39,365 nt of DNA from a virus: the IMG/VR virus record IMGVR_UViG_3300031566_000152, positions 1 through 39,365 of that record. One strand, 5' to 3'. This document shows positions 2,021-36,009 of this stretch, piece by piece. The notes beneath the pieces were generated by a model. It was not told where the DNA came from, searched no databases, and saw only the letters and a list, made by a program, of their open reading frames with translations. A program made the translations under genes and the position numbers. Position 1 is the stretch's first letter, and each line of letters opens with the position of its first letter.

Positions 2021-3529
2021 ATGTCAATACCCACTACAATTCGCGTGCCTTTTGTGTACGTTGAATTTGACGAGTCACGGGCATATTCTGGCCCGGCGCT
2101 TTTGAAATACAAAGTGCTAATTTTAGCGGAGAGATTGAGCACGGGAACGAAGGCAGTCAATGAGATTTCGGCTGTCACTTCAGCTGATCAGGCAGCAACC
2201 TATTTCGGCGCGGGATCCGTGATTCACAGAATGTTTCAGGCTTGGTTTCAGAACAATAAACTGGTTGAAGTTTTTGGGCAGGGGATCGAGGAAGCGACAG
2301 GAAACAAGGCAGCAGCAAGCATAGTATTCACCGGAACAGCTACAGCAGCAGGGACGGTATATGCTTATATTGACGGAACAACTATCCAAGTTGCTGTTGA
2401 ATCCGGAGATGCTGCCGCTGATGTTTCATCCGCTCTGGCTACGGCGATCATTGCCGTGACTTCTCTCCCAGTGACCTGCGACGGCACCACTACTCCGGGA
2501 ACGGCTGTGGTGACTTGTCGGACAAATGGAACAGTGGGAAATGAGTTGGATATCCGGCTCAACTATAATGACGGAGAGGAGTTGCCGGCGGGCATCACTG
2601 CTGTTGTCGCTGGATCGGGCCATCAGGCTACTCTCTCCGGCGGCACGGGGACTCCCGATTGGTCAAGCACTTCTCCCCTGTCCAGCTGGGGTGATACGTG
2701 GTTCAATATCATTATCGGATCGGTCAAGGATGCGACCAATATGACTTTGATCGAGACTGAGTTGGCAGACAGATTTGGTGCCCTGCGTATGATTGATGGT
2801 ATATATATCTCCTCCCAGCGCGGGACTCTCTCTGGACTTGCGTCATACGGAAACGGGCGCAACAGTCCTCACGTGATCATGCTGGAGAACGGTGGAAAAT
2901 TAGGAGTGGGCGGCCCGACAAGCAGCTGGTGGATTGCGGCGGGAGCCGGAGGACGGATTGCCACTGAGGCTGAAATCGATCCGGCCCGGCCATTTCAGAC
3001 TCTTCAAATTATCGGAGCCCTCCAACCCGATATCACGGAACAGTTCACACTGGCAGAGCGCAATACTCTCCTCTATGACGGCATAGCAACCATCCGTCCG
3101 TCATCCGGGGGAGCGGTTCAGATTGAGCGGGCAATTACAATGTATCAGACCAACGCTGCGGGAGCGGCTGATATAGCTTATTTGAACTCAAATACTCTGT
3201 TCACATTAATGTATATCCGGTATGACTGGAGAAACATTATACTGACAAAATATCCGCGAGCGAAGTTGGCGAATGACGGAGTGATGGTGGCTCCGGGACA
3301 GCAGATCATGACCCCTTCTGTGGGCCGGGCCGAAGCGATAGCGCGGGCGCGCACGTGGGAGTTCTTGGGACTGGTGGAAAATATCGATCAGTTCAAACAG
3401 GATCTGGTGGTGACGCGGAGTATATCTGATCCGGATAGGTTGGATTTCCTCCTTCCTCCTGATTTGATTAATCAATTGAGGGTGGTGGGGAGCACTATTC
3501 AGTTCTTGTTGGAATCACCGACAATATAA
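2021..3529 (+). CDS. Tail sheath protein (Mu gpL-like)
   Basis: 502 residues, usual length for Mu-type sheath proteins. It forms the contractile outer tube of the tail. The N-terminus (RVPFVYVEFDESRAYSG) and the following segment, where TSADQAATYFGAGS leads to MFQAWFQNN, are typical of the family. A 100-residue Ala/Thr/Gly-rich domain follows (about 100-210), then the C-terminal sheath core (AERNTLLYDGIATIRPSSGG, later YIRYDWRNIILTKYPRAKL). AGGAGG lies 10 bases before the ATG. The tube gene follows directly, as in all Mu-like modules. Confidence 0.92.
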   Translation: MSIPTTIRVPFVYVEFDESRAYSGPALLKYKVLILAERLSTGTKAVNEISAVTSADQAATYFGAGSVIHRMFQAWFQNNKLVEVFGQGIEEATGNKAAASIVFTGTATAAGTVYAYIDGTTIQVAVESGDAAADVSSALATAIIAVTSLPVTCDGTTTPGTAVVTCRTNGTVGNELDIRLNYNDGEELPAGITAVVAGSGHQATLSGGTGTPDWSSTSPLSSWGDTWFNIIIGSVKDATNMTLIETELADRFGALRMIDGIYISSQRGTLSGLASYGNGRNSPHVIMLENGGKLGVGGPTSSWWIAAGAGGRIATEAEIDPARPFQTLQIIGALQPDITEQFTLAERNTLLYDGIATIRPSSGGAVQIERAITMYQTNAAGAADIAYLNSNTLFTLMYIRYDWRNIILTKYPRAKLANDGVMVAPGQQIMTPSVGRAEAIARARTWEFLGLVENIDQFKQDLVVTRSISDPDRLDFLLPPDLINQLRVVGSTIQFLLESPTI

Positions 3530-6209: not shown

Positions 6210-7427
6210 ATGGGATGGAAAGAGAGATTATTGCCGGCCAGTTTTCGCGGTGTTTCTTTTTACGTGAATGCGGCCAATAACACGTTCGGCCGTCGAATGA
6301 TCACTCATGAGTTTCCCCAACGTGACGTGCCGTATACGGAGGACTTGGGGCGGCAACCGAAGCACTATCAGATAGACGGATATTTGCTTGGTGATATGTA
6401 TATGGAACAGCGGGACAGGCTTCAGAGCGCTTGTGAGGATCAATCCACGGCAGGTGAATTGATTCATCCTTATTACGGGATATTGAAAGTGCTGTGCTCC
6501 CGGTTTGTCACTTTGGATAGTACGGAGGAGACGCGGATACTGCGCATTCAGATTGCTTTTGTCGAAGCTGGCTCTCTCCTGTTCCCTTCAACTTTTGTGA
6601 ATACTTCTTTTTCCAACGCCACCAACAAGCTATCCGTCATCGATCAGGCGCGGGCCGGGCTCAGGGCTCTCTATGATTTGACCCGTATCCCGGTAAATAA
6701 ATTCAGAGAAATACGCACCAATGTTCAATCGGCAATAGGAGCCATTGAGGATTATAGATTGATAGTTGCTTCTGTTGCTTCATACGGGAAGATGGTCAAA
6801 CGGACTCTGGCCGATATCGATACACTGATTCAAAGCGCAGATGATCTGGCTGAAGCGATGGCCGATTTGGTGACGTTTGGATCTTTCCCTGATGGATTGT
6901 TTCCCTCTGATCGCAATGATTTCGATACTGCCAATGAAGAAAATCCGGCGACTGAATTGAATAGCAGGGATCAATTCGATGAATTGAAATCTATGTTTGA
7001 ATGGGAGCCGGAGACAAGCACCAGCGAGCAATCGGACGCGGTGACCGCGTATATTCAGCAAATCAATATAGCCACAGGCGCTGGTTTTATGTCCGTGATG
7101 CCCTTCAGCAGTCTGGATGACGCGGAAGCATTCCAAGACATTATAGTGGGCCAGATCAATAGGGTGCTTTTGAATGATCTTCCGACAGATATTGCGGCGG
7201 CTTTCCGCGATCTAAAAGCATCAGTGATAGCTGATTTGAAAAAGCGTGCCACTACATTGGCCCGGCTCACCACGTTGACTCCTCCGGAGTCCGTCCCGGC
7301 CCTTGTGCTGTCCTTTAAGCTATACGGAACAGTGGATGCGGAACAGGATATCATTGATAGGAATAAAATTGATCATCCCGGATTTATCCCCGGAGGACAG
7401 GAAATTGAGGTATTGACCAGTGTCTGA
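6210..7427 (+). CDS. Mu gpN-like tail/DNA circularization protein
   Basis: 405 residues from ATG 6210, which has GGGGAGA just upstream; an in-frame GTG at 6180 lies inside the tape measure gene. The first 130 residues match the 'DNA circularization protein N-terminus' family: ERLLPASFRGVSFYV, RRMITHEFPQRDVPYTEDLG, KHYQIDGYLLGD and HPYYGILKVLC. Despite the family name, gpN is a baseplate hub component in Mu. The C-terminal half is helical and less conserved. The gpP-like gene follows with an 8-base overlap. Confidence 0.88.
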   Translation: MGWKERLLPASFRGVSFYVNAANNTFGRRMITHEFPQRDVPYTEDLGRQPKHYQIDGYLLGDMYMEQRDRLQSACEDQSTAGELIHPYYGILKVLCSRFVTLDSTEETRILRIQIAFVEAGSLLFPSTFVNTSFSNATNKLSVIDQARAGLRALYDLTRIPVNKFREIRTNVQSAIGAIEDYRLIVASVASYGKMVKRTLADIDTLIQSADDLAEAMADLVTFGSFPDGLFPSDRNDFDTANEENPATELNSRDQFDELKSMFEWEPETSTSEQSDAVTAYIQQINIATGAGFMSVMPFSSLDDAEAFQDIIVGQINRVLLNDLPTDIAAAFRDLKASVIADLKKRATTLARLTTLTPPESVPALVLSFKLYGTVDAEQDIIDRNKIDHPGFIPGGQEIEVLTSV

Positions 7428-8484
7428 AGTCAATCTGAGAATAGGAACGGTGAACTATACTGGCTGGAAAACGGCGAGTATTTCCCGCTCCATTGAGTCT
7501 CTTTGCGGTTCCTTTTCTTTGGAATTGATAGATGGCTTCACTCCAGAGCTATGGCCAATCACTCCCAATGTTGAAGCTGATATTGATATTGATAATACTC
7601 CCGTGATGCGCGGGTTGATCGATCGCATCAGCCCCTCCATTAAACAGGATTCCAGAGGGCTGTCAGTTTCAGGAAGGGATACAACAGCGGATCTGGTTGA
7701 CTGTTCGGCTATGAATGAGCCGGGGACTTGGAGAAACAATACAGTCACAGTCACAACACTGGCCCGTGCGCTGTGCGCTCCTTTTGATGTGAGAGTGATT
7801 GCGGAGCGGCAGACCGCTGAGAAATTTACCCATACCATACAGGCGGGGGAGAGTCCTTTTGAGTCTTTGGCGCGGGCGAATGAATTTGAGGGAGCACTAT
7901 TTTTAACTGATGAGCGGGGACGGCTATTGATTACCAGCCCAGGGCAGGGGGAGCCCGCAACCGATAAACTGGTGACGGGGGAGAATATTATTGAAGCGTC
8001 AGCTGCTATTGATTATTCAGATAGGTTCTCTGATTATACAGTGAAAGGACAGGCGCGGGAGATAGGGGACGGATGGAACAGCAATACAGTATCAGTCAAG
8101 GCTTCATCCTCAGATCCTATCATCGCATCAAAGCGCTTCCGTCCGAAGCTGATAGTTGCTGAAAAAACTGTGAACACTGCTGATGCGCAGAATCGGGCTG
8201 ATCTGGAAGCGACGGTGAGAGCGGCGAAGTCATCACAAGTGACCGTGACTGTTGCTGGTTGGGCTCAGAGGAGCGGAAGGCTTTGGCCTTTGAATGGATT
8301 GGTATCGGTGAATATTCCTGAGCTACAGTTGACGGACAGAAAGATGCTGATCACTTCGGTCAATTACTCCAAATCTATCGGTGAGGGATCGAGAACAATC
8401 ATTGAGTTGAGACGTGAAGATGCTTATAAAGCATTGGTGAAAAAACAAGTCAGAACAGGAACGGCGAACGGCTATGGCTGGTAA
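7420..8484 (+). CDS. Baseplate hub protein (Mu gpP/gp44-like)
   Basis: 354 residues with a GTG start inside the end of the previous gene; GAGGT lies about nine bases upstream. It matches the gpP / gpD-like hub family: N-terminal SISRSIESLCGSFSLEL, then PVMRGLIDRISPSIKQD and LSVSGRDTTADLVDCSA, and a C-terminal segment VAGWAQRSGRLWPLN. The hub connects the spike to the tube and is related to T4 gp27. Order gpN-gpP-gp45 is as in Mu. Confidence 0.9.
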   Translation: MSEVNLRIGTVNYTGWKTASISRSIESLCGSFSLELIDGFTPELWPITPNVEADIDIDNTPVMRGLIDRISPSIKQDSRGLSVSGRDTTADLVDCSAMNEPGTWRNNTVTVTTLARALCAPFDVRVIAERQTAEKFTHTIQAGESPFESLARANEFEGALFLTDERGRLLITSPGQGEPATDKLVTGENIIEASAAIDYSDRFSDYTVKGQAREIGDGWNSNTVSVKASSSDPIIASKRFRPKLIVAEKTVNTADAQNRADLEATVRAAKSSQVTVTVAGWAQRSGRLWPLNGLVSVNIPELQLTDRKMLITSVNYSKSIGEGSRTIIELRREDAYKALVKKQVRTGTANGYGW

Positions 8485-8947
8485 TGATAGGACATTGAAT
8501 ATGCTTGAGCGTTGGATTTCTCCGCTCAGAAAGCGTGTTGCGCTGATGATTATGAAAGCCGTCGTGAAGAGCATCGACACGGCCACAAAGCTGCCCACAG
8601 TGACCGTGGCGTTGCTGTCGGGGGAAGATAAACCAGTCACCCTTCTCCAAGCATACGGCATGGCATCCTGGCCAGTTACGGGGGCGCAGGGCATTGTCCT
8701 GTTTCCCGGAGGAAATCGGGAACAGGGCTTGCTGGTTTCGACGGATAATGCGGATGGGCGGCCCGCTCTGGATAATGAAGGTGATACGGCTCTATATAAC
8801 AAGGGCGGATGCCTGATCAAGTTGAAAGATGACGGAATTGAGATCACAGCGGCCGGAGGAAATATCACCATCATAGCTTCCGGATCTGAAGTGAATATAA
8901 CTACGGATAAATTCACAGTCAACGGCTCTAATCTTGAGGTGACTTAA
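8474..8947 (+). CDS. Baseplate assembly/spike protein (Mu gp45-like)
   Basis: 157 residues, shorter than Mu gp45. It has an OB-fold part (VVKSIDTATKLPTVTVALLS, then LQAYGMASWPVTGAQGIVLF and GGNREQGLLVSTDN) followed by a short repetitive beta tail (GIEITAAGGNITIIASGSEV) typical of trimeric spike helices. It starts within the end of the hub gene, and its stop overlaps the next start (TAATG). No HxH iron-binding tip is visible, so the tip may be the next gene product. Confidence 0.85.
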   Translation: MAGNDRTLNMLERWISPLRKRVALMIMKAVVKSIDTATKLPTVTVALLSGEDKPVTLLQAYGMASWPVTGAQGIVLFPGGNREQGLLVSTDNADGRPALDNEGDTALYNKGGCLIKLKDDGIEITAAGGNITIIASGSEVNITTDKFTVNGSNLEVT

Positions 8948-9346: not shown

Positions 9347-9835
9347 ATGGATTTTGAAAATATAGGCGATATGATGATGACTCTTGATCCGTTGGATGGG
9401 TACGGAGATATCAATATGACTTTACGGGACGCTGCCAGAGATTCAGGGCTGGAGACAGCGGTGCTCATATCTCTGTTCTCCGACAGGAGAGAGAATGATG
9501 AGCGGTTGCTCCCAGATGACTCCGGGGGCAAGGGTGGATGGTGGGCGGGGGCCGTATTGGATAGTGATATAGAATTTGGATCAAGGCTTTGGTTATTACA
9601 GAGGGGAAAAGATGTCAATGAAGTATTGACATTATCTCGTCAATATTGTCTTGAGGCACTTCAATGGATGTTGGACGGGGAAGTGGCGAGCGAGATTGAC
9701 GTGACCGCAACCAAATACAGTTCTCAAATATTGTTCCTGTCCATCCGCATAGTACGGCCAGGAGTCACTCAATCAAATGAATTTACTTATAGATATTTCC
9801 TAAATTGGGAAGCACAGACTATACGAAGGGGATAA
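9347..9835 (+). CDS. Baseplate protein (Mu gp46-like)
   Basis: 162 residues. The gp46 family signature is clear: LETAVLISLFSDRR, then LLPDDSGGKGGWWAGAVLDS, and RLWLLQRGKD. gp46 is the wedge/sheath-initiator component related to T4 gp25. It lies directly before baseplate J, as in Mu. Confidence 0.92.
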   Translation: MDFENIGDMMMTLDPLDGYGDINMTLRDAARDSGLETAVLISLFSDRRENDERLLPDDSGGKGGWWAGAVLDSDIEFGSRLWLLQRGKDVNEVLTLSRQYCLEALQWMLDGEVASEIDVTATKYSSQILFLSIRIVRPGVTQSNEFTYRYFLNWEAQTIRRG

Positions 9836-9839
9836 TATT

Positions 9840-10907
9840 ATGCCGTTCACCAGACCAACACTGATTACGATTATTCAACGTATTGAAGCGGATATGGAGC
9901 AGCGGCTCACTGGGACTGTCCCGTTGCTTGCTGTGGGGCTCCTCCGGATATTGGCCAGAGTATTTGCGGGAGCAATCCACCTTCTGTATGGACTCCTCCA
10001 GTGGCTTGCCAAACAGCTATTCTATGATACAGCGGAGGAAAGCGAATTGGACAACCATGCCCGGCGATGGGGCTTGACCCGGAAGGCGGCTGAGTTTGCA
10101 ACAGGCACAATCACATTCACTGGAGTTGATGGGGCGAGTATTGCGACTGGGACATTGGTGGTGGATGAAGATGGAGTTGAATTAGAAACTACAGCCAGCG
10201 GAATAATAGCGGCCGGGACTCTCACGTTGGCCGTCGAAGCTGTGGAGCCGGGGGATGCGGGAAATTTAACGGCAGCCACTGTATTGATTATGATAGAGCC
10301 GATGAGTGAAATAACTGAAGTTGAAGTTGTATCAATGGCCGGGGGGTTGGATCAGGAGAGCGACAGCGATTTGGCCGGAAGGATATTTGAGCGCATATCT
10401 ACTCCTCCTATGGGCGGGACTGCTGATGATTTTGAACGATGGGCAAGGGAGGTGTCTGGAGTGGCGGATGCTTGGGCCTTCCCGAATAATCCGTCATTGG
10501 GGACGGTGTCAATAGTAGCGAAGGCGCTGGGGGTTGACCCTGTTCCGGCTCCCGCTCTCCTGTCTGCCGTAGAAACAAACGTGAATGCAAAAAAGCCAGT
10601 CACGGCCGGGACAGCAATTGAGCCTATTGTCAGTAAGTTGATAGATATTACAATTGAGATTGATACTGATTATACCCCGTATGAAAACGCTATTGAATCT
10701 AATCTGTCGGATTTCTTCGGAAGCGAAGCGGCCCCCGGCGGGACAATTCTTTGGAGTCAATTGAATAACGCTATATCAACATCAGGCATTCCGGATTATG
10801 AGATCACGCAGATCACTGTCGCCGGCACTCCTGTCTCCTTGGCTGATATCGTTTTCACAGGTTTTGAATATCCTGTTTTGGATGATGTATTCTGGACTTT
10901 GATTTAA
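9840..10907 (+). CDS. Baseplate J-like protein (Mu gp47)
   Basis: 355 residues, standard length. Baseplate J features: an N-terminal helix (LITIIQRIEADMEQRL), LYGLLQWLAKQLFYDTAEE, ELDNHARRWGLTRK, a beta domain with GTLVVDEDGVE, the EVVSMAGGLDQESDSDLAGR block, and IFERISTPPMGGTADDFERW. These proteins form baseplate wedges (T4 gp6 relative). GGGGATAATATT precedes the ATG. Confidence 0.94.
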   Translation: MPFTRPTLITIIQRIEADMEQRLTGTVPLLAVGLLRILARVFAGAIHLLYGLLQWLAKQLFYDTAEESELDNHARRWGLTRKAAEFATGTITFTGVDGASIATGTLVVDEDGVELETTASGIIAAGTLTLAVEAVEPGDAGNLTAATVLIMIEPMSEITEVEVVSMAGGLDQESDSDLAGRIFERISTPPMGGTADDFERWAREVSGVADAWAFPNNPSLGTVSIVAKALGVDPVPAPALLSAVETNVNAKKPVTAGTAIEPIVSKLIDITIEIDTDYTPYENAIESNLSDFFGSEAAPGGTILWSQLNNAISTSGIPDYEITQITVAGTPVSLADIVFTGFEYPVLDDVFWTLI

Positions 10908-10922: not shown

Positions 10923-12542
10923 ATGGCATATGAAGAATTTGAGCCGTCTCAAAAATACTCCTGTTTAGAGTATTTGAAAATGCTCCGACGGCTATTGCCC
11001 AGCGGGCCGCTATGGGATCGGCTCCGGATCGCTCCGTGCTTGGCGGTGACTCCCCGGTATTGGGTGAAGGTTGCTGAATCTCCCTCCAGCGCTCCGGCCG
11101 GGTTGGAAGTCATGGTCACGCAGACTTATGGCGGCCGTATTTGGATGGGGACACGTCACACAGACGGAACAGGGAGACTATGGCAATGGTTCGGATCGGA
11201 GTTGGAGATATCCCTTGCGGCAGATACTTATTTGGGGCAGGAATTGATCTATGCGCTGGAGCCTTATGGCGGGTATTTAATGGTGGGAACGGGGAGAACA
11301 GGAGCACTATTGAAGCATACTCCCGGCTCAGGTTTTTGGTCAGTTGAGGCTCCTATGACCAGTGGTCAAACTGATCTTTTTTCCCTTCGCACATCTTTCT
11401 ATCCCGGCCCTCAACCAATTCTTTATATCGGAACATATCCCAACGGACTCCTTCTGAAGAATGATATTTGGGCACCAGGTTCAATGACTCCTGTTCTCCC
11501 CCAAGCGGCAGGGAAATGGACCATACACTACATGGATATACTCAACAATAAGTTATACGGAGTGACGGAGAGTATGGCGCTATTTGAGTGGGATTTCGCG
11601 GCTGGCACGTGGACTGTGCTTCAGGACGGGTGGATGGATACTATAGGTGGATGGGCGCTCAGGGCCTTCAACGGTTCTGTTTTTGTCGGTACACGGGATC
11701 ATGCAAGGATCGGATATTGGGATGGGGCTTCAATTGTAGAATTGCCCCGCTCTCCCTATTTGGATTATGATAGTTCTCTTCATTTTCTCCGGGAACATAA
11801 TGGAAAATTATATGGTGTGACGATGGCGGCTATCTCCGGCGCTCCTCCAACTATCGAAGGCGGATCATATCTAATTGAAGTTGATTCCAATTTCAATTAT
11901 CAGATATCGGCTTTGACCCCGACAGCCAATGGGATTGGTATGGCTGGATTGGAAAGCCTTAATGGAAAGTTATACGGTATCCAAACTGATGGGACAATAT
12001 GGGAAGCGGTGGAGAGCCCGGAAACGTCATGGTTGGGGCGGTTATTGTCTTGCTTTGCTTCGGAGCTATCCCGTTTTGAAGCTGATGTGGTTAGGTTGCA
12101 GCGGGAAAGCGTCCCCGGACTGTCCGTTGAATTGCTATCGGACTGGGAGCGGATAGCAGGGTTGCCTGATATATGTACTCCTCCCTCATTGACGACAGCC
12201 CAGAGGCAAGCCAATGTTCACACAAAAATATATTTGACTTATTCAGGGCTCAGCAGTCAATTCTTTATTGATTACGCGGCAGGGCTGGGCATCACTATCA
12301 CGATATCAGATGTATCGGGCGGGGATTTATTCCGCACAGGACATAAGACTGATGGAAGGATTCAGCGAGTCACTCAAATGCCCCCTCCGGACGGTATTGA
12401 TGATTCAAGACTAAATTCATCAAGCGTTCAATATCAGTGGGTAGTTGATGTGGTATCGGATCCGGGAGGAAATAGGAGCCTGATGGAATGCGTATTCAAT
12501 AAGATAAAACCAGCGTGGACTCAAGTGATATTCACGCCATAA
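10923..12542 (+). CDS. Tail protein gp48-like (DUF2313) with inserted beta-propeller
   Basis: 539 residues, against roughly 200 for ordinary gp48/YmfQ-type proteins. The N-terminal 35 residues (YLKMLRRLLPSGPLWDRLR) and the C-terminal 170 (SELSRFEADVVRLQRES, LLSDWERIAGLPD, TTAQRQANVHTKI, FIDYAAGLGITITISDVSGG) are the two halves of the gp48 family. Between them, residues about 60-365 hold seven copies of a blade motif ending in a conserved strand: GGRIWMGTRH, GGYLMVGTGR, QPILYIGTYP, NNKLYGVTES, NGSVFVGTRD, NGKLYGVTMA and NGKLYGIQTD. This predicts a seven-bladed beta-propeller on the tail tip, perhaps for receptor or polysaccharide binding. The fibre gene follows. Confidence 0.82.
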   Translation: MAYEEFEPSQKYSCLEYLKMLRRLLPSGPLWDRLRIAPCLAVTPRYWVKVAESPSSAPAGLEVMVTQTYGGRIWMGTRHTDGTGRLWQWFGSELEISLAADTYLGQELIYALEPYGGYLMVGTGRTGALLKHTPGSGFWSVEAPMTSGQTDLFSLRTSFYPGPQPILYIGTYPNGLLLKNDIWAPGSMTPVLPQAAGKWTIHYMDILNNKLYGVTESMALFEWDFAAGTWTVLQDGWMDTIGGWALRAFNGSVFVGTRDHARIGYWDGASIVELPRSPYLDYDSSLHFLREHNGKLYGVTMAAISGAPPTIEGGSYLIEVDSNFNYQISALTPTANGIGMAGLESLNGKLYGIQTDGTIWEAVESPETSWLGRLLSCFASELSRFEADVVRLQRESVPGLSVELLSDWERIAGLPDICTPPSLTTAQRQANVHTKIYLTYSGLSSQFFIDYAAGLGITITISDVSGGDLFRTGHKTDGRIQRVTQMPPPDGIDDSRLNSSSVQYQWVVDVVSDPGGNRSLMECVFNKIKPAWTQVIFTP

Positions 12543-12558
12543 ACAGGAGGAAACAATC

Positions 12559-14148
12559 ATGCACAGGTGTACCAACGCGGACAGCAAAACCACGGCCACG
12601 GGAAAATACGACGGAACGGTTGATATATACCGCGATCAATTGGGAGGGAGCTATGACGCAACGCAATTGAGGCACGCGGAAATGAACGCAATACAGGAGG
12701 AAATAGCCAACGTCATTCGCGGTGAGGGTATATCCCTCCAAACGGATACTGAGACTCCTGCTCAGATGTTTCAATTGGAAACGGCTATCAATGCTAAGCT
12801 GGTTGCGTCCCGGATAGACAATGATTCAGGGGTATCCGGAACGGATGTGGATGATGCGTTGGATCAGTTGGATTCTGATATCGGAGGGTTGGATAGTACA
12901 GATATCGGGAATGTTTCTACTGTCACCGGAGCTACAGTAACAGCTGCGCTGAATGCTCTGGATACTTTACTTGGATCGCTAAGCAGTGATGATGTGGATA
13001 GTGATTGTGGATATCTATTGGGAACAACAGTGACTGATGATCTTGACAATCTGGCGGAGCGATTGTATTATGATGAACTGTTCGGAACAATAACTGGATT
13101 CAATTATGAAGTAATTACGGGGGGCAGTGATTATTTTAGAGTGAATTTCAGAACGGAAGGCAAGACTATTGGGCGGCCCTTTGGCCCCTATGCGCAACCG
13201 ATATATCGAATCAATGCTGGCGATCATTATAAAAATGTAGTTGCCGGAAGTGCTCTGGTGAGCTGGGTTGCGGGTTCGGGTGTCGGGGGGTGCGCTTCTG
13301 CGCTTGAGGACTTGCCCGCCACTCCCTCCACTACGTTTTCCGGTATACAGACTTCGGGGAGCGCTGTCATTACATCAATGACCGATACCACGAAGATCAG
13401 CGTGGGTGATCTTGTGGCTATCAGCAGTACGGGCTTTGCTCCAAATAAATACGTCAGGGTGGTCGGGAAATCTGGTACTTCAATTACGGTTCACCGCACA
13501 TCCAGCAATACTTCTGGATGTACAGTTGAAGTGGCTTTCCGGCCCCTATTTGTATTTGCTCTGGGGAAAACTACATTGATGACGGCTGCTGAATACGGAT
13601 TTGATACTTCTTATAGTGCATCAAATTTGATGTCAGATGTGGCTGGGGATGGGTATGATTTGTATAGACGGATCGGACATATTATCATATCCGGATCTAT
13701 CCCCGGAGCGGCGGGAGGATGGGCCGTAATTCCTATGGTGAAACAGGGGCAGAGATTTATTTTGAATGAGTCCGTGAAGTTGGAAGATACTGCGATCATA
13801 GGATCAACCGCAAGATCATTTACAGTCCCACTGCGCACCGACGTAAATGATTATTGGTATAAGATCGCTGATATGCAATTTACTTATAGATCAGGAGGGG
13901 ATACTGGAGCAGCTACTCAACTGGATATCAGGGGCGATGACGGAGGAGGAAGTGCGGACAGTATTCTGGAGTCATTGAATCTGGATACGGCGAGCAGTGA
14001 AACGTATGACACTATTCAGGCGATGGTGCCGTTGCGTAAAATATCATCTGAATATTATGTGAGACGTTCGACAGGGGATTTGGATGGGGAATTTGAGGCA
14101 CGTTTCCGGGGATGGATTGAGGATTTGAGCAGTGAATGGGGTACTTAA
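12559..14148 (+). CDS. Putative tail fibre protein
   Basis: 529 residues with AGGAGGAAACAATC before the ATG. Residues 20-75 resemble the N-terminal attachment part of fibres (QLRHAEMNAIQEEIANVIR). Residues about 88-175 contain three related repeats of the type G-T-x-V-x-D-A-L-x-x-L-D (GTDVDDALDQLDSDIG, GATVTAALNALDTLLG, GTTVTDDLDNLAERL), typical of trimeric fibre shafts. The rest is glycine/serine-rich and beta. It is the last tail gene before the lysis genes, so it is probably the receptor-binding fibre. No chaperone gene follows. Confidence 0.75.
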   Translation: MHRCTNADSKTTATGKYDGTVDIYRDQLGGSYDATQLRHAEMNAIQEEIANVIRGEGISLQTDTETPAQMFQLETAINAKLVASRIDNDSGVSGTDVDDALDQLDSDIGGLDSTDIGNVSTVTGATVTAALNALDTLLGSLSSDDVDSDCGYLLGTTVTDDLDNLAERLYYDELFGTITGFNYEVITGGSDYFRVNFRTEGKTIGRPFGPYAQPIYRINAGDHYKNVVAGSALVSWVAGSGVGGCASALEDLPATPSTTFSGIQTSGSAVITSMTDTTKISVGDLVAISSTGFAPNKYVRVVGKSGTSITVHRTSSNTSGCTVEVAFRPLFVFALGKTTLMTAAEYGFDTSYSASNLMSDVAGDGYDLYRRIGHIIISGSIPGAAGGWAVIPMVKQGQRFILNESVKLEDTAIIGSTARSFTVPLRTDVNDYWYKIADMQFTYRSGGDTGAATQLDIRGDDGGGSADSILESLNLDTASSETYDTIQAMVPLRKISSEYYVRRSTGDLDGEFEARFRGWIEDLSSEWGT

Positions 14149-34296: not shown

Positions 34297-34645
34297 CACA
34301 AATGGTGGAAAAGTTGAGAGCCTTCCCAAGTGGGCTCAGGGGTATATCAAAAGTTTGGAGCGGGAACGTGAGACGGCTGTGAATGCGCTGTTCGACTATA
34401 CAAAGAATCAAGAGCCATCTCAATTTTATTCTGATTCCTTCCTACGCTTGGGGCAAACCAGTATGGTGAAACAGTATATTCAAGCAGATAGTGTGACTTG
34501 TGAGATCAAGGGACTGTCTGTGGATATGCGTGTTCATGACGATAATTCCATATCAATTATGTTCAGCGAAAAATATGGATATGAGGCGGTTTTGGTTCCC
34601 TTTGCCAGTAATTCATTTAGAATAAAAAGGATAAAAAGGCAATGA
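34289..34645 (+). CDS. Phage protein of unknown function (LPKWAQ type)
   Basis: 118 residues from ATG 34289, overlapping the previous stop by eight bases; GGAGGAGGAG lies upstream. It begins with LPKWAQGYIKSLERERE, a pattern I recall from many small phage proteins. The second half is beta (VTCEIKGLSVDMRVHDDNSI, then AVLVPFASNSFRIKRIK). Function unknown. Confidence 0.6.
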   Translation: MADTNGGKVESLPKWAQGYIKSLERERETAVNALFDYTKNQEPSQFYSDSFLRLGQTSMVKQYIQADSVTCEIKGLSVDMRVHDDNSISIMFSEKYGYEAVLVPFASNSFRIKRIKRQ

Positions 34646-36009
34646 AAAGAAGGCGCATCACTCCCACTGTTCCGGCCCCGGCCCCGGCCCCGGCTCCGGT
34701 TCCTGATCGGTTCTATCCATCTCCACGTTGGAGTGGGGAAATACTGGATTGTTCGATGCCGATGACGTTTGATCAGTTCTCTCGCTGTTCATATGACTGT
34801 CTATATTGCTTCTCCTATTTCCAGCGTTCAGTGCGTCATCTCAATCCACTACAGAATAAGGACGGGAAACGGGAATTGTATACACATGAGGCCCCGTATC
34901 CAGTGAACGTCCCGGAAATCAAAGCTATTTTTTCCGGAGAGAAGCGCAGTCAATTCTCCGGGTACATAGATGAAAAGGTGTGGATGCAGTGGGGAGGGCT
35001 GTCAGATCCTTTTGATGAATTTGAGCGGAAGCAAGGCGTTGGGCTGGAGCTGCTGAGGTATTTCTCCGCTCTCCAGTATCCTATCTGTTTCAGTACGAAG
35101 GGGACGTGGTGGGTATATGATGAACGGTATATGGAGCTATTCCGGCGGAACAGAGAGCGCTGGAATGTGAAATTCAGTATTATCAATCTGGACGCGGAGC
35201 GCTCCCGGAAGATAGAGCGCGGTTGCCCTCCCCCAGCGGATAGATTGAAAGCGATGAGGGAACTATATGAATCAGGGTGCAGTGCCACCCTGCGGCTCCG
35301 GCCGTTTATCATAGGGCTGTCGGACAGGGATGATGAGTATTTGGAGCTGATCGCTCAGGCACATGAACAGGGAGCCACGGCTCTCTCCACTGAGTTTTTC
35401 TGTCTGGAGGGAAGGATAATTGACCGGACGCGATATGACAAGATGAGTGAGGTGCTGGGGTTTGACCTGTTGGATTTCTACAAGCGGAACAGTCCGAAGC
35501 GGGGAGGGTATATGAGGCTCAACTGGAAAATCAAGGAGCCCTATGTCAACAAGATGGAACGACTATGCCGGACGCTGGGAATGCGGTTCTATGTCTCCGA
35601 TGCGCATCACAAGGATCGCTGTGCGACGGGGAGCTGCTGCGGGCTCCCGGAGGGCTCCAACTACCATCGAGGACAATTCACTCAGGCGATAGTGATTGCG
35701 CGGCAGCGCGGTGAAGTCCGGTTCTCCGATATTGAACCGTATATTCTCCGGTGCTTTAAAAATATTAAAGCGACTCAAGCGACTAATGGACTGAATTTTA
35801 TGCGCGGAAGTCCGGGACAGCGGGCGCGGTTCAAAGACTTCACAATATATGATATGTTTCGATATTTTTGGAATGAGCCGCAAGACGCTAAAAGTCCTTA
35901 TAAGTATTTCGCCGGAGCCCTCCGGCCCGACAGAATAGACGGCGACGGAAACGTGGTTTATAGGTTTCATGGCTATCAGGAGCCAGCAAAGGGGGGCGAG
36001 CTTATTTGA
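34642..36009 (+). CDS. Radical SAM enzyme 2, spore photoproduct lyase-like
   Basis: 455 residues, ATGA overlap with the previous gene. A PAPAPAPAPVP lead is followed by the cluster motif C49-x3-C53-x2-C56 (RCSYDCLYCF). The pattern MQWGGLSDPFDEFERK and YPICFSTKG is like the SPL/YgaQ-type radical SAM branch. Near the C-terminus DRCATGSCCGLPEG adds three cysteines. It is the last gene before the second control element. It is related in type to enzyme 1 but clearly distinct in sequence, so it probably does a different step on the same modified base (inference). Confidence 0.82.
   Translation: MKRRRITPTVPAPAPAPAPVPDRFYPSPRWSGEILDCSMPMTFDQFSRCSYDCLYCFSYFQRSVRHLNPLQNKDGKRELYTHEAPYPVNVPEIKAIFSGEKRSQFSGYIDEKVWMQWGGLSDPFDEFERKQGVGLELLRYFSALQYPICFSTKGTWWVYDERYMELFRRNRERWNVKFSIINLDAERSRKIERGCPPPADRLKAMRELYESGCSATLRLRPFIIGLSDRDDEYLELIAQAHEQGATALSTEFFCLEGRIIDRTRYDKMSEVLGFDLLDFYKRNSPKRGGYMRLNWKIKEPYVNKMERLCRTLGMRFYVSDAHHKDRCATGSCCGLPEGSNYHRGQFTQAIVIARQRGEVRFSDIEPYILRCFKNIKATQATNGLNFMRGSPGQRARFKDFTIYDMFRYFWNEPQDAKSPYKYFAGALRPDRIDGDGNVVYRFHGYQEPAKGGELI

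Follow-up and report, generated by a model that had tools for sequence, protein, structure and literature searches.

A predicted seven-bladed beta-propeller inserted into the gp48-type wedge subunit of a Mu-type phage baseplate

The window, a virus record of 39,365 bases analysed at its full length, carries a Mu-type contractile tail module within its first 14 kb, and the gene that precedes the tail fibre was confirmed, by sequence matches and a structural model, to encode the gp48-type wedge subunit (BW3) of its baseplate, with a predicted beta-propeller lodged behind its N-terminal segment and ahead of helix 2 (Table 1). An earlier note on this DNA had claimed gp48-type N- and C-terminal parts, about 300 residues with seven blade-like motifs between them, and an insertion that more than doubles the protein. 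Both gp48-type ends are borne out by PF10076, PHROG 203, the Mu gp48 structure and the N-terminal motif, and at about 2.8 times the length of a normal gp48 (about 195 aa) the protein is indeed more than doubled; the seven blades stand, supported by the register of homologues and by the model, but the insert is longer than claimed, at about 330 residues. We consider that the propeller is probably a host-surface adhesin, likely to bind glycans through one face and acting besides the fibres.

A gp48-type protein in a Mu-type tail module

The C-terminal part of the protein matches PF10076 over residues 373-538 (E 8.9e-14; 52 bits against a Pfam cut-off of 37.4) and PHROG 203, a baseplate wedge subunit family, over residues 359-538 (4.3e-32), and the Mu gp48 chain 9ki1_a is matched at 1.5e-6. 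At the other end, residues 16-33 (EYLKMLRRLLPSGPLWDR) correspond to positions 7-24 of a gp48 profile constructed for this analysis, a match that is weak when taken alone (6 bits), and this region shares 57% identity across 21 residues with the gp48 N-terminus of contig L195. The motif reads LLPSGPLW, so that the LLPxGxxW segment is present ahead of helix 2. Likeness to Mu gp48 (PF10076, PHROG 203; 9KI1) extends over this motif, helix 2, the WE..GLP core, a C-terminal PA.T..F motif and the place in the gene order, whereas the Mu protein lacks the insert of ~330 residues. In Mu, the fibre docking loop comprises residues 133-155 (PMC11915804); its putative counterpart here is shortened to ~8 residues, with a longer loop just ahead of it.

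The tail genes follow the Mu-type order of sheath, tape measure (TMP), DNA-circularisation protein, hub, spike, gp46, J (gp47), gp48 and fibre. Both the gp48 core (40% identity) and the start of the fibre (40-42%) are related to their counterparts in contigs L279 and L280. Three further contigs, obtained from different metagenomes, contain the gp48-type gene with 0-2 bases altered, which rules out an assembly chimera. In contig L004, the sole differences within this gene, at positions 11518 and 11520, produce the adjacent replacements W199L and T200A at the start of blade 4; both change amino acids, although two differences are too few to test. Elsewhere in the window, a radical SAM-like protein (PF04055, under the cut-off) is encoded at 34642-36009 among small unassigned genes.

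Table 1. Coordinates of the gp48-type protein, its tail module and related proteins on other contigs
Feature	Contig	Position	Strand	Basis or remark
gp48-type baseplate wedge subunit (BW3) with inserted propeller, 539 aa	window	10923..12542	+	ORF from ATG start to stop, PF10076, PHROG 203, 9KI1
gp48 N-terminal segment, residues 14-33, CLEYLKMLRRLLPSGPLWDR	window	10962..11021	+	gp48 profile, identity to L195, Mu gp48 counterpart FLQLLPSGLAWNK
Predicted inserted seven-bladed beta-propeller, residues 45-365 (residues 45-51, strand closing blade 7)	window	11055..12017	+	homologue alignment, AlphaFold2, fold matches
gp48 core, helix 2 to end, residues 366-539 (last 174 residues)	window	12018..12539	+	PF10076, PHROG 203
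Putative stretch at the place of the Mu gp48 fibre docking loop 133-155, residues 511-518	window	12453..12476	+	alignment
Contractile tail sheath	window	2021..3529	+	PF04984, PF17482
Baseplate hub, gp44/gpP type	window	7420..8484	+	PF22255, PF21683, PF21929
Spike, gp45 type	window	8474..8947	+	PF06890 1.4e-12
gp46-type wedge subunit (BW1), without extra domain	window	9347..9835	+	PF07409 1.9e-29
gp47/baseplate J wedge subunit (BW2)	window	9840..10907	+	PF04865 1.6e-56
Tail fibre protein, 529 aa	window	12559..14148	+	PHROG 2617 and 6859 (tail fibre) matched at the N-terminus
gp46 with N-terminal propeller	L239	2390-4021	+	
gp46 with N-terminal propeller	L242	6884-9055	+	
gp46 with N-terminal propeller	L250	4688-7069	-	extra domain of ~200 residues within the propeller
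Split gp48 ORFs	L279	4898-5812 and 5809-6306		ATGA stop-start overlap at the junction
Split gp48 ORFs	L280	5790-5972 and 5983-6492		core ATG preceded by a GGAG-like site

Fold of the insert

Contig L165, found at the DNA level through the blade motif NGKLYGVT, encodes a tail protein with seven clear repeats; the insert aligns with it in register (E 5e-12) and also matches L174 at E 2e-17. Two further protein searches yielded more homologues, mostly with exactly seven repeats of ~42 residues and starting with the presumed closing strand of blade seven. Structure prediction, which the earlier note had proposed for the full protein, was run with AlphaFold2 on the insert with 13 homologues as alignment (A6) and returned a closed seven-bladed propeller (pLDDT 82.9, pTM 0.86), whose strands are arranged as seven blades of four and whose first strand, at model residues 10-16, completes the last blade. 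The fold is thereby supported as a predicted, not a solved, structure. As one blade contains both the first and the last strand, the two ends exit the ring next to each other, as insertion into a loop requires. Repetition within the single sequence is modest, with one of 60 shuffles matching the self-alignment score, so that proof of seven blades depends on the homologues and the model. A single-sequence AlphaFold2 run of the whole protein was unusable (pLDDT 37), and two whole-protein alignments (A1 and A5) put gp48 N-termini on blade 7 and were excluded from folding.

By its own sequence, the propeller had no match in Pfam, PHROGs, the PDB or isolated phages. A profile of it matched mostly propellers in the PDB, with the designed Scone-E and SAKe6FE at the top. 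Solved propeller chains align to the model over 277-300 residues with Z 28-32, including WD40 proteins at Z 28-29, with virginiamycin B lyase (PDB 2Z2O; Z 32.2, 2.3 A, 288 residues) scoring highest. This match raises the question whether the insert is itself an enzyme, either a lyase or a hydrolase of glycans, cleaving surface polysaccharide en route to the membrane, in keeping with the many propellers among carbohydrate-active enzymes, with the propellers of phage endosialidases (PMC4901313) and with the depolymerase-kind beta-helix on the gp46 wedge neighbour of the L195 gp48. However, this antibiotic-cleaving lyase shares 8% identity with the insert and the scores of many non-enzyme propellers come close to its own, so that the likeness informs on the fold only. 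The columns kept across all rows of A6 (Ala, Leu, Trp and Tyr) are typical of blade scaffolds, and none is charged in a way that would point to a shared active site. We therefore regard an enzyme as improbable and favour the adhesin.

Insertion site and carriers of the propeller

In the alignment with Mu gp48, the break falls in a short NK/SPDS loop. Between LLPSGPLW and helix 2 lie about 330 residues (~333), against mostly 2-7 in 122 gp48 relatives bearing the motif, none of which carries the insert; a search of gp48 homologues had also been suggested by the earlier note. Likewise, none of 18 gp48 proteins from 398 genomes of one phylum has the propeller. Rarity is poorly measured, since the examination covered the 80 best gp48 matches among at least 554 in viral contigs. 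Taken together, 184 gp48 and 102 propeller ORFs (contig copies included) meet in one protein only in the analysed phage and in L195. Several apparent gp48 inserts (L061, L042, L066, L158 and others) turned out to be upstream open frame.

The scarcity of the insert among gp48 proteins would also suit a neutral passenger that folds independently and has no function. Against this, an open frame of 330 residues and seven intact blades have been kept despite strong divergence (more than three changes per column), the family has repeatedly been joined to baseplate proteins, and the base composition, which equals that of the neighbouring genes, gives no sign of a fresh insertion; recent acquisition, considered for the case of an odd composition, was set aside. 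A passenger is thus highly improbable, and the recurrence of the propeller on different baseplate parts speaks for a function of the module rather than an accident.

This recurrence is seen in a newly named propeller family (NGKLYGGT..EWNG): over 20 IMG/VR contigs of uncultured phages carry it on various tail proteins, and it went undetected in 50,697 isolate phage records. Its members (L165, L171, L173, L195, L200, L239 and others) share the seven ~42-residue repeats and the N-terminal closing strand but differ in their carriers, and only the copy described here was found inserted inside gp48. This copy is much diverged, with 21-28% identity in A6, most EWNG.DAW signatures lost and an end branch of more than three changes per column in the tree. 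Carriers include hub-like proteins (L165, PHROG 196/1887; L173 and L200 by the look of the sequence only), TipJ-like proteins (L180 and L184, the former with PF13550 and PHROG 1101), proteins bearing LamG (L204, L181), fibronectin-type or fibre-like proteins (L176 and L172, by appearance) and small proteins with little besides the propeller. Two arrangements come closest to ours. The L195 protein is a second gp48 (PF10076, 6.2e-15), encoded after J and before a fibre-like gene, with the propeller at its C-terminus. In L239 and L242/L250, which share the tail gene order of the analysed phage, with 35-38% identity in the hub, 40-44% in J and, where seen, 40% in the gp48 core, the propeller is found at the N-terminus of gp46 (PF07409). 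A propeller tree did not settle whether the copy described here and the gp46-borne copies go back to one shared acquisition, its branches being long.

Some members of the family depart from the common pattern. L170 (6064-6831) has six near-identical blade repeats and L188 is a shorter variant with fewer blades, which suggests recent tandem blade growth or assembly collapse. L254 (minus strand, ORFs of 242-315 aa) and L235 (three ORFs of 311-316 aa) carry three or four adjoining stand-alone propeller genes; the propellers of these two contigs that were read have a VYRYDGG or VYRYEGG variant of the repeat. L196 and L199 are circularly permuted, starting with strand B and ending with strand A, so that the ring would close from the C-terminus. 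Chromosomal relatives (L269-L274) come from genomes that belong to the same phylum as the Phycisphaerales MAG G004; L269, the only one examined over its full length, begins with a signal-peptide-like segment and also carries LamG.

Further modules were found on gp46 and gp48. In L279 and L280 (the latter on the same contig as L250), two ORFs encode the N-terminal part and the core of gp48, and the break coincides exactly with the insertion site of the propeller in our phage; as these are two independent contigs with cores 51% identical and the same split point, a sequencing error is unlikely. The N-terminal part of L279 has about 260 residues unrelated to the propeller, with repeats and a jelly roll-like part but no Pfam match, and similar repeats occur on gp46 of the same phage, in which a propeller was detectable on neither gp46 nor gp48. 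In L280, the propeller is on gp46 instead, and the gp48 site holds only a short linker. Furthermore, gp46 of L195 (887-3169) has a large N-terminal right-handed beta-helix (PF13229, 4.8e-13) of depolymerase-like kind, the gp48 of L128 (3974-5491; the same protein in L293), which comes from a Gammaproteobacteria MAG, bears at its C-terminus an SPDG.xWT repeat domain that, judging from its repeats, is likely a second, unrelated kind of propeller, and the L145 gp48 is extended at its C-terminus by a part that weakly matches SWM repeats.

The variety of these additions indicates that both proteins repeatedly carry extra domains, and the baseplate seems to offer cassette platforms both in the insertion site and in the gp46/gp48 pair. 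Tentatively, and with somewhat more doubt than confidence, we propose that in these related uncultured contractile phages gp46 and gp48 may be interchangeable mounts for host-binding or host-cutting modules, with a hypervariable cassette site after LLPxGxW and with gp48 made as two polypeptides in L279 and L280. If so, the wedge itself would sense the host alongside the fibres, and the site would offer a concrete and portable place to seek such modules.

Possible roles at the baseplate

In Mu, each wedge has one BW3, hence six per virion, located at the baseplate periphery where they hold the fibre, and the apex of the N-terminal bundle of BW3 lies near gp46 (PMC11915804). By analogy, six propellers might ring the baseplate of the present phage, and those borne by gp48 and by gp46 may occupy the same region. 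The earlier note had placed the propeller at the tail tip beside the fibre; a baseplate location near the fibre fits the Mu gene order, but with the insertion loop in the N-terminal region the propeller may lie along the upper rim instead of at the very tip.

Such a position could also serve a purely structural part, in which the propeller docks a folded-back fibre along the sheath or braces the contact between gp46 and gp48 and has no host ligand. This would agree with an insertion in the region near gp46 in Mu (PMC11915804) and with related modules that carry the propeller on gp46, and the apparently shortened Mu-type docking stretch means that another fibre dock may be needed. Nevertheless, hub-like, TipJ-like and fibre-like carriers share no common structural neighbour, and L280, with a propeller on gp46 but not on gp48, together with L279, with none on either, implies that baseplate assembly does not need it; we judge a structural role unlikely.

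As an adhesin, the propeller would be a portable module of a family spread across the baseplate and tip proteins of uncultured phages. One face bound to a host ligand would hold the baseplate on the cell and add avidity to the fibres, and the binding signal might be relayed straight to the wedge, helping to trigger contraction. An adhesin is consistent with the other domains resembling adhesins or depolymerases, as judged by their sequences, on gp46 and gp48 (L195, L128, L279). On the other hand, a fibre gene is present and its product could do all receptor binding alone, and if the bundle apex lies near gp46 as in Mu, the propeller might not be turned towards the cell before contraction. The fibres alone are generally taken to determine the host range of Mu-type phages and pyocin-like particles, and a receptor-type propeller in a core wedge subunit would let the host surface touch the contraction trigger directly.

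Propellers at phage tail tips are already known; the gp48 carrier and its insertion site appear new to us. The earlier note knew of no described example, and our search of open-access papers turned up no account of such a domain on either gp48 or gp46 of Mu-type baseplates, but undescribed ones exist at the C-terminus of the L195 gp48 and at the N-terminus of gp46 in L239 and L242/L250. One known case is PhiKZ gp131C (4GBF), a seven-bladed propeller at the baseplate periphery suggested to bind a receptor (PMC4901313); it likewise belongs to a contractile tail, but is the C-terminal domain of another protein in a jumbo phage. No sequence link to it was found, and its absence among the fold-search matches listed is uninformative on kinship. 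The receptor-binding protein (Gp45) of Staphylococcus phage phi11 is also reminiscent of our insert, being a baseplate propeller closed by an N-terminal strand, with a GlcNAc-sized cavity as a likely glycan site (PMC4901313), although it has five blades and is a separate trimeric protein on a siphophage baseplate rather than a wedge subunit. PRD1 P2 and the phage endosialidases are further adsorption parts with propellers (PMC4901313).

Among predicted structures, the baseplate wedge initiator of cyanophage S-SSM7 (BFVD E3SL21) gave a weak propeller match (TM 0.64) with a poor superposition of 7.7 A; this is a propeller-like match in a wedge-annotated protein, but a giant one whose homology to the insert is not established. 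We take this wedge initiator to be of the T4 type.
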